Source: Candidatus Tectimicrobiota bacterium
GTDB lineage: Bacteria; JACPSX01
Reading direction: 5' to 3'
DNA: 12,591 nt
Assembly (NCBI GenBank): GCA_016193065.1
Contig: JACPSX010000070.1
Coordinates: 1 to 12,591, forward strand
Shown: positions 3,113 through 7,184 of the stretch, in pieces
How the letters are laid out: the number at the start of each line of letters is the position of its first letter
Position numbering within the stretch: the first letter of the stretch is position 1
Notes under the pieces: generated by a model
Database searches by the model: none
Told to the model about the DNA's origin: nothing
What the model saw: the letters and a program-made list of their open reading frames with translations, nothing else
Position numbers and translations under genes: made by a program

Positions 3113-4569
3113 AGGGCTTCGGAAGCTCCCCAAGAAAAATTTCTCCTTTTCTCCTGGCGGCCCTTCTGGGACTTCTCCTGAGCAGTTGCGCGGCCCCGCG
3201 GCTGGACTTCCCAGCGGTTTCGGACCTGCGCTACAAGCCCATCCAATGGACTCCCCTGGAGCCCGAACGGCGGGTCCTGAAAAACGGCCTGGTCCTCTAC
3301 CTGCTCGAGGATCACGAGCTCCCCCTGATCAACATTTCGGCCACGATCCGGGTGGGATCCGTGTATGAGCCCGCAGATAAAGTCGGCCTGGCCTCTCTGA
3401 CAGGCTCCACCATGCGCGCAGGGGGAACCGCGTCCTTCTCCCCGGAAGAGATGAACCAGACTTTGGAGTTCCTGGGGGCCTCGGTGGAGAGTTCCATCGG
3501 CACGGAATCAGGCCAGGTCTCCATGGGAGTTCTCCGCAAGGACCTTGACCTGGGGCTCCGGATCTTCGCGGACGTCCTGCGCCGTCCGGTTTTCGGCCAG
3601 CAGTGGGTTGATCTGGCCAAGAACCAGGCCATCGAAGGGATCCGCCGCCGCAACGACAACCCGGGCGGAATCGCCCAGAGGGAGTTTGCCCGGCTCATTT
3701 ATGGAGATCACCCCAACGGGCGCCTGTCCACTGTGCAAACGATTCAGAATATCACCCGCCAGGACATGATCGACCTTCAGCGACGCTACTACCACCCAAA
3801 CCAGGTGATCCTGGGGATCACGGGAGATTTTCAAACCGAGGAGATGGTCGCCAGGATTTCTGAAACCTTCTCCAACTGGGAACCGGACTCGGTGGTCTAT
3901 CCCCCGGTTCCACCGGTTCCCCGGGAGATCTCCCCTTCCGTGAACTTCATAAACAAAGAAGGAGGTCAGGCCACCGTGGTGCTGGGGCACCTGGGCATTC
4001 GTTTGAACAACCCCGACCTCTACGCTCTGCGGGTCATGAACCACATCCTCGGAGGCGGCGGGTTTAACTCCCGGTTGATGCGGGAGATCCGTTCTGACCG
4101 GGGGCTGGCCTATTCGGTCGGGAGCTCGCTGGGAGCCGGGGTGCGGGATCTGGGGACCTTTCGCGTCTCGGGAGGAACAAAACCCCAGACGGCCGCCGAG
4201 ATGATCTCTCTCATGATCAAGAACCTGCGGGGGATCCAAAAAGACGTCACTCGGGAGGAGGTGGAAGCAGCCAAAGAATCCATCGTCAACTCCTTCCTGT
4301 TTACCTATACGTCCAAGTCGGCCGTCGTGGACCAGCAAATCTTCCTGGAGTTTCATGATTTGCCCCGGGACTACCTCCGGACCTATCCCGAAAAGATTTC
4401 CCGCGTCACTCGCGAAGACGTCCTGCGCGTGGCCGGGCAATATCTGCACCCCGATCGCCTGATCCTCCTCGTGGTGGGGGATGACAAGAAATTCGACCGC
4501 TCCCTGAGCGACTTTGGAGCCGTTCGCACGATCCGTCTCGACGAACCCCTCCCGGCAACGGCCCCCTGA
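3109..4569 (+). CDS. M16 family peptidase-like lipoprotein, non-catalytic partner
   Basis: This 486-residue protein starts with a lipoprotein signal peptide: basic N-terminus, hydrophobic run, lipobox L24-S25-S26-C27, then Ala-Ala, which fits outer-membrane sorting. It has the two-lobed M16 architecture, but the site aligned with HxxEH in the upstream gene reads S96-L-T-G99-S100, so both zinc-binding histidines and the catalytic glutamate are missing. The C-terminal domain keeps the R322/Y335 pair in SRLMREIRSDRGLAYS. In the M16B family a catalytic subunit with HxxEH commonly pairs with a subunit lacking it but contributing Arg/Tyr to substrate binding, as in mitochondrial processing peptidase. 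The ATGA overlap (3109-3112) with the catalytic gene implies translational coupling and roughly equal amounts. The lipid anchor may tether the complex to a membrane. The heterodimer is inferred. Confidence 0.92.
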   Translation: MKGFGSSPRKISPFLLAALLGLLLSSCAAPRLDFPAVSDLRYKPIQWTPLEPERRVLKNGLVLYLLEDHELPLINISATIRVGSVYEPADKVGLASLTGSTMRAGGTASFSPEEMNQTLEFLGASVESSIGTESGQVSMGVLRKDLDLGLRIFADVLRRPVFGQQWVDLAKNQAIEGIRRRNDNPGGIAQREFARLIYGDHPNGRLSTVQTIQNITRQDMIDLQRRYYHPNQVILGITGDFQTEEMVARISETFSNWEPDSVVYPPVPPVPREISPSVNFINKEGGQATVVLGHLGIRLNNPDLYALRVMNHILGGGGFNSRLMREIRSDRGLAYSVGSSLGAGVRDLGTFRVSGGTKPQTAAEMISLMIKNLRGIQKDVTREEVEAAKESIVNSFLFTYTSKSAVVDQQIFLEFHDLPRDYLRTYPEKISRVTREDVLRVAGQYLHPDRLILLVVGDDKKFDRSLSDFGAVRTIRLDEPLPATAP

Positions 4570-4591
4570 AAGGCCAAGGAATCGGTCTCCT

Positions 4592-7042
4592 ATGAGCGCT
4601 CCCCGGCTGTACCTCATTGACGGCCAATCCTACATTTACCGCGCCTACTTCGCCATCCGCCAGTACCTGTCCACAGCAGCGGGACTGCCGACCAATGCAA
4701 TCCTCGGCTTCACGAACATGCTTCTGAAGGTCCTGAGGGAGGAAAAGCCCGATCTGCTGGCCGTTGTCTTCGATCCGAAAGGTCCCACACGCCGGCAGGA
4801 AGTCTTTGAATCCTACAAAGCCCAGCGCCCCTCCATGCCCCCCGACATGGCCCGGCAGATCCCCTACATCCACCGCGTGGTGGATGCCTTGCGGATTCCA
4901 AGGTTACAGATCGAGGGGCAGGAAGCAGACGATGTGCTGGGAACCCTGGGGGTTCGGGGTGTGCACGAGGGATATCAGGTAACTCTGGTCACCGGGGACA
5001 AGGACATGCTCCAGATCGTGGGGCCCAACGCGGTGGTCCTGGACACGATGAAAGGGAAGGTCTACACGGAGAAAGAGGTCATCGAGCGCTTCGGAGTGGA
5101 GCCCGGCCGCGTGGTCGAGGTCATGGGTCTCATGGGGGATTCCATCGACAACATCCCCGGAGTGCCGGGGATCGGCGAGAAGACCGCGATAAAGCTGATC
5201 CGGGAATTCGGTACCCTGGAGAACTTGCTGGCGAACCCGGACCGGGTGAAAGGGGAAAAACTGCGTGAGAGCCTGAAAGAGTATGCGGAGCAGGCCCGCT
5301 TGAGCCGCACGCTGTGCACCGTGGAGACCGACCTGCCCGTCGATCTCCCTCTGGAGTCCCTGCGGGTCCAGCCTCCGGACCGCCCTGCTCTTCTGAGCCT
5401 GCTCCGGGAACTGGAGTTCTCCAACCTGCTCAAGGAATTCGCCGCGGAGCCGGCTCCCGCCCCAGTTTCTTTACCGGCAGAGGAGGAGCGGATCTCCTGG
5501 CCTTCTTTCCGGGAAACACTGAAAAGCCCGGCCGGATTCGCTTTCGAGATTGTCAATGGGACGAGTGCCACGCCGCAATTTGCCGTGGCCGTCTCGGGAG
5601 ATTCCTCCCATATGTTGGGTGAGGATCTCACCTCGGACCCGGCGGTTCTCAAAGATTTCAGAGCTCTCCTGGAAGACCCGGATCTCGCGAAGATCTGTCA
5701 CGATGCGAAGGGAAAGTACCGGACTCTGGCCCGGCACGGGATCCACCTGCGCGGGGTCTGCTTCGATCCCATGATTGCCGCCTATCTCCTGAACCCGGCC
5801 AAGAACCGCTACGATCTCCCTCAACTGGCTGTGGAATCCCTGGGAGTTTCCCTGGCAGAGGAAGGGAAGGGAGGAGTCAGCGCCGTAGAGGCCCGGCGGC
5901 GGGCTGCGGCCGTATTCAAGCTGCGGGAGGTCCTGTCGGAACCTTTGCGGGAGAGCGGGCTCAATGAGCTTTTCTACGAGGTGGATCTCCCCCTGGCCCG
6001 GGTGCTGGCCCGCATGGAGGAGTGCGGGGTCAAGGTGGACATGGACCACCTGCGTGAGCTTTCCAAAAGGATCGAGATCGATCTGGAACAGATCGTTTCC
6101 CGGATTTATGCCCTGGCCGGCACGGAATTTAACATCAATTCTCCGGTTCAGCTTCGGGAGATCCTCTTCGAGCGCCTGGGGCTCAAGCCGGTCAAGAGAA
6201 CCAAGACGGGGTACTCGACGGACATGGAGGTTCTGGAGAAGCTGGCGGAGCATCACGAGCTGCCCGCGGAAATCCTCTCCTACCGCCAGCTCGCCAAGCT
6301 CAAGTCGACCTACATCGATGCCCTCCCCACCATGGTGGATCCCCGGACAGGCCGCATTCACACCTCCTATAATCAGACCGTGGCAGCCACGGGGCGCCTG
6401 AGCAGCAGCGATCCGAACTTGCAAAACATCCCGATCCGCACGGAGCTGGGCCGGGAGATTCGCAAGGCGTTTGCAGCGGAAAAGGGCTTCCTCCTCCTGT
6501 CCGCGGATTATTCCCAGATCGAGCTTCGAATCCTGGCTCACGTTTCGGGGGACGAGGCCATGCTGGAGGCCTTCCACCAGGGCGAGGACATTCACGCCCG
6601 CACGGCGGCCGAGGTCTTCGGAGTGGACCCTTCCGGAGTCACCCCCGACATGCGGCGGGTGGCCAAAACCGTGAACTTCGGTATCCTTTACGGTCTGAGC
6701 GTCTACGGGCTGGCCAGCGGCTTGAACCTGTCCCGGGAAGAAGCCCGGGCCTTCATTGAACGCTACTTTGAGCGCTATCCCGGGGTCAAAGCCTACATTG
6801 AAAAAGTAAAGGGCGATGCCGCCCGGCGGGGATATGTGACCACACTGATGAACCGGCGCCGCTACCTCCCTGAGATGGAGAGCCGCGACCGCAACGTGCG
6901 CGAGCTGGGGGAGCGGTTGGCCATCAACAGCCCAATCCAGGGGAGCGCCGCGGACATCATCAAGGAAGCCATGATCCGCATCGAGCGAGAGCTGGAAGAG
7001 CAGCAGCTCTGCGCCGCCATGATCCTCCAGGTCCACGACGAG
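4592..7042 (+). CDS. polA: DNA polymerase I, 3' end lost after motif C
   Basis: Pol I fills gaps and removes RNA primers during replication and repair. The 5'-nuclease domain (about residues 1-290) is complete, with LYLIDG, VVFDPKGPTRR, EADDVLG, VTGDKDM and GDSIDNIPGVPGIG. The 3'-5' exonuclease domain (about 320-480) lacks its acidic metal ligands and is probably inactive. The polymerase domain has motif A ADYSQIELR (D639), motif B RRVAKTVNFGILYG (K692, Y700) and motif C QVHDE (H815, D816, E817). Homology stops right after E817: the usual ~45 C-terminal residues (LVFEV onward in relatives) are absent and repeat DNA follows. The frame stays open to a TGA at 8072-8074, which would give a 1160-residue product with a 343-residue non-homologous tail read through the repeat and the next gene out of frame. 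Start 4592 is chosen because MSAPRLYLIDG matches the family N-terminus and AAGGA lies 11 bp upstream; the earlier ATG at 4514 would overlap the M16 gene. The protein is possibly non-functional. Confidence 0.9.
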
Positions 7043-7090
7043 GGACATACATACAGGAAGAAATTGGAACGAAGCTCACTAGGCTCCTCC
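7043..7090. other. Unexplained low-GC junction segment after polA
   Basis: These 48 bases directly follow the last polA-homologous codon. They are about 48% GC, well below their neighbours, and no frame resembles the Pol I C-terminus. They may belong to the outer part of the repeat that follows, or be the scar of a deletion or assembly join. Confidence 0.5.
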
Positions 7091-7157
7091 GTCATTCCGG
7101 CGAAGGCCGGAATCCAGGGGAACCACTGGACCCCGGCTTCCGCCGGGGAGGCGCAGG
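7091..7157. repeat. REP-like palindromic repeat of the 'VIPAKAGIQ' type
   Basis: The element contains three stems in series: ATTCCGGC (7094-7101) with GCCGGAAT (7106-7113) around GAAG; TCCAG (7113-7117) with CTGGA (7126-7130); and CCCCGGC (7131-7137) with GCCGGGG (7142-7148) around TTCC. Translated on the + strand its left arm reads SVIPAKAGIQ, and on the - strand WIPAFAGMT. These are the familiar false peptides of a dispersed intergenic repeat found in many environmental Proteobacteria and related bacteria. It occupies the space between the truncated polA and the reductase gene. Only one copy is in the window, so its abundance cannot be judged here. Confidence 0.8.
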
Positions 7158-7184
7158 ACACAATAGGAGGGACGGGAGGCAGCT

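Follow-up and report, generated by a model that had tools for sequence, protein, structure and literature searches.

The systems described so far that come closest to the locus analysed here are bacterial DNA polymerase I (Pol I, family A), the CGTC-tagged REPs, and the local errors found in metagenome assemblies. REPs of the CGTC families are mainly found 3' of genes, without a dedicated tyrosine transposase flanking them. REPs within DNA repair genes have also been reported, among them the DNA polymerase I gene of some species (PMC3733652). Local assembly errors are documented in metagenome assemblies, with 13 of them in one genome of 1.1 Mb (PMC7111523).

The window, that is, the whole stretch of 12,591 nucleotides that was analysed, is one entire contig (C256) of a draft genome. 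Its polA gene shares with bacterial DNA polymerase I every domain and motif as far as motif C, as well as the last 12 residues and the stop. It differs in that, as assembled, it is without about 33 residues after the HDE of motif C, and its frame is shifted from there on. The features of the locus are as follows.

4592 to 7042, plus strand: polA codons 1-817, up to motif C QVHDE (Pfam matches; length and end checked)
7042 to 7044, plus strand: point of loss of about 98 nt, or 33 codons (HDE-to-Trp spacing; ORF length)
7044 to 7082, plus strand: authentic polA 3' end DIHTGRNWNEAH with TAG stop at 7080-7082, in the shifted frame (PSSM; profile of relatives' C-termini)
About 7090 to 7163, plus strand: CGTC-tagged REP dimer, intergenic (sequence dissection; DNA fold; copies in the same genome; family definition in PMC3733652)
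7185 to 8078, plus strand: gene for a 3-hydroxyisobutyrate dehydrogenase-like NAD-binding protein, intact (Pfam PF03446 and PF14833 at full length)

The polA frame starts at the ATG at 4592 and runs unbroken through QVHDE, beyond which homology is lost. Its domains follow the order 5'-3' exonuclease, 3'-5' exonuclease-like and polymerase, with Pfam matches to PF02739, PF01367, PF22619/PF01612 and PF00476. The matches to PF02739, PF01367 and PF00476 lie above the cut-offs, which identifies the locus by its domains as DNA polymerase I. An earlier note on this DNA had described the Pol I motifs as intact up to E817, with homology ending there. This is borne out: residue 817, encoded by bases 7040-7042, is a glutamate and the last homologous residue, and PF00476 (DNA_pol_A) is matched over positions 2-336 of 381 only. 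The assembled gene therefore does not hold a complete polymerase C-terminus in one frame. The 3'-5' exonuclease domain (window 5480-5860) covers its Pfam models only in part and may be without the proofreading residues.

The sequence beyond the glutamate can be read in another way. Taken one frame off, bases 7044-7082 encode DIHTGRNWNEAH followed directly by a TAG stop. The Pol I proteins of relatives end alike, for instance in VDIGLGNNWEEVHD, VRTGRNWLEAH or VDIHTGADWAEAHG. A PSSM for the Pol I C-terminus, built on 39 relatives, gives DIHTGRNWNEAH a score of 24.6 bits, which is inside the relatives' own range. The second-best place in the window, all six frames included, scores 10.1, and the top score among 300,000 random peptides is 15.6. 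Independently, when the whole genome was searched with a profile of the relatives' C-termini, bases 7044-7079 were matched at the last 12 columns of that profile. Since the PSSM score lies far above chance and the profile matches as well, the bases that follow HDE are the genuine end of polA. They had previously been taken for low-GC bases standing in place of about 45 missing C-terminal residues. Their GC content is indeed low (47% over bases 7043-7089, compared with 61.7% for the window), but they replace nothing, because they encode the normal PolA end. The last 12 residues and the stop are thus present in the shifted frame, and what has been lost is a stretch of about 33 codons inside the gene.

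The size of this loss follows from the spacing between two conserved points, the glutamate of HDE and a tryptophan near the C-terminus. This distance was scored as 40 residues in 35 of 43 relatives. A further five were scored at 36; these have GWG tails, in which the script picked an earlier tryptophan, and their true spacing is also 40. Other spacings were seen in the remaining three. A solved Pol I structure aligns without gaps across the same stretch. The corresponding distance is 22 nt in the window as against 120 nt in the relatives, so that 98 nt are missing, and the gap can be placed between GAG (7040-7042) and GAC (7044-7046). As 98 cannot be divided by three, the gap shifts the frame, and the ORF in the assembly continues to 8074, giving a product of 1186 amino acids. 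Going by the Pol I fold, one helix of the palm and the second strand of the hairpin that carries motif C are among the missing residues, so polymerase activity is not to be expected of the protein as assembled.

In principle, such a gap might be mended in the cell by recoding, either through a frameshift or through a bypass. The correct tail does follow in another frame, but the missing residues of about 33 codons did not turn up at any other place in the assembly. Since the locus contains no DNA for these conserved residues, no frameshift could supply them, and recoding is scarcely credible.

Between the end of polA and the downstream gene lies the repeat. It begins 7 bp past the true stop, and its first unit (7090-7117) consists of CGTC, ATTCCGGC, GAAG, GCCGGAAT and CCAG. 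The second unit is inverted and follows after a spacer, with its tag worn. The repeat folds strongly, with three stems and a DNA fold z of -3.9, and a search of its own genome returned about 12 further matches with E below 1e-3, among which the inverted-dimer form recurs. The earlier description of a three-stem palindromic repeat of dispersed type was therefore correct. A search of Rfam for structured RNA gave no match.

These properties are those of the CGTC-tagged REPs (PMC3733652). The unit at 7090-7117 has the terminal CGTC, the AT-starting stem of 8-9 bp (here 8 bp), the loop of 4-5 nt (here 4 nt) and the CCA-type tail by which such REPs are defined, and the dimer is inverted and lies 3' of a gene, as in the described families. 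The copies are dispersed, recur as inverted dimers and, as far as their placement was checked, appear mostly intergenic. The window repeat differs in the worn tag of its second unit and in its host, the sole member of its phylum among the genomes compared. Like the REPs reported within DNA polymerase I genes, it is found near polA. Unlike those, it lies past the true stop and is hence no insertion into the gene. Separately, the genome holds two genes for Y1-type transposases (Y1_Tnp; L091 and L092, on contigs C217 and C67).

The position of the repeat bears on the first explanations offered for the break. It had been thought that polA stops sharply at the repeat, cut there by recombination between repeat copies, or that two contigs had been wrongly joined at it, with foreign bases following HDE in either case. 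In its favour, a repeat that also occurs at other places in the genome is close by. However, 46 bp separate the break from the repeat, and they are occupied by genuine polA C-terminal sequence and its stop codon. A true stop between the two leads to the rejection of a break at the repeat, which is highly improbable in either form. That the assembly is at fault, as had been suspected in general terms, is supported, but in the form of a local internal gap and not of two contigs joined at a repeat. It is almost certain that the gap is internal to polA and that the repeat is unrelated to the break; the repeat itself is an ordinary CGTC-type REP with no part in it. The case calls for some caution, since a conserved gene that apparently ends at a repeat can instead contain an internal gap and a frameshift. 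Reading the other frames reveals such a gap immediately.

The rest of the genome was searched for other copies. A single Pol I was found in the assembly, at the window locus, and no second one. The missing residues were sought genome-wide with the profile of relatives' C-termini, and the window locus alone matched. The idea of a replaceable Pol I in a host with a second copy thus finds no such copy in the assembly, and the missing 3' end of polA, which it had seemed worth looking for elsewhere, was likewise not found outside the window locus. One weak match on contig C226 (E 0.57) was considered as the missing piece and rejected, as it sits in a glutamate-synthase-type protein. The genomes compared include neither a close relative of the host nor a second assembly of it; in the other genome collection, the top polA match is 53% identical. 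A search of the literature on C-terminal deletions of polA yielded nothing useful.

Two ways remain in which the internal gap may have come about. In the first, the organism would have an ordinary polA with a normal 3' end and the TAG at 7080-7082, followed in intergenic space by a common REP dimer of CGTC type. Some 98 nt would have been dropped inside the gene right after the HDE codons, so that the final 12 codons fall into another frame, and this loss would be a local short-read assembly error in a draft metagenome-assembled genome. The draft comprises 294 contigs totalling 2.9 Mb, with a completeness of 86%; the contig number and completeness suggest that it was built from short metagenome reads. 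As with the local errors in metagenome-assembled genomes described before (PMC7111523), a short faulty stretch would break a gene in an otherwise sound contig. The present case differs from those in that the error is probable and not proven.

In the second, a genuine recent deletion of 98 nt exists in the sequenced population. The palm of the sole Pol I would be cut after motif C while the 5'-3' exonuclease domain stays intact, a long read-through protein would be made, and the strain would live on the 5' nuclease and other polymerases. The sequence as assembled shows such a deletion, and the genome is without a second Pol I. Under some conditions, E. coli and B. subtilis can live with mutations in the polA polymerase. 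If true, the host, a member of a poorly known phylum, would naturally have a single Pol I, and that one defective as a polymerase. Against it, neither the tail nor the body of polA shows further decay. The sequence on either side of the gap looks conserved; any loss would thus be very recent, or would never have taken place in the cell.

Further evidence comes from a survey of other broken genes across 276 kb of sampled sequence from the same genome. Short losses that are not multiples of three, with both flanks conserved, were found in argB, in a UbiD-family gene and in a gene for a TAXI-type binding protein. The broken genes are as follows.

L110 (G000:C31), 4002-4875: argB, about 31 nt missing near the 3' end (size estimated from relatives ending in ELFTDRGIGTEIV)
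L099 (G000:C20), 6347-6355: UbiD-family decarboxylase gene, 23 nt missing mid-gene (compared with an intact paralogue)
L099 (G000:C20), 14157-14160: TAXI-type binding-protein gene, about 19 nt missing near the 3' end (adjoins an intact paralogue at 14147-15376)
L102 (G000:C48), 3180-3330, minus strand: PIN-domain gene, small frameshift, with the end RVRWIGDYRS in another frame

Because the housekeeping gene argB, the UbiD-family gene and the TAXI-type gene carry similar short losses in the same assembly, an assembly artefact is favoured over a real deletion. The gap has probably arisen during assembly, a deletion in the population is unlikely, and the PolA that the organism itself makes is probably complete. 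True pseudogenes may be among the other broken genes. Gene losses inferred from the present assembly should be checked against reads beforehand.

Frames that over-run, extending more than 400 nt beyond their coding signal, were also counted. The coding sequence surveyed here, 228 kb, has three of them, and the 477 kb from two single-contig control genomes has none. This too points to assembly, although the numbers are small. In the UbiD-family gene, 10 residues of the intact paralogue (L097, 16150-17697) are absent, the loss being 23 nt by count. Downstream of argB in L110, the start of argD overlaps the stop of another frame (ATGA).
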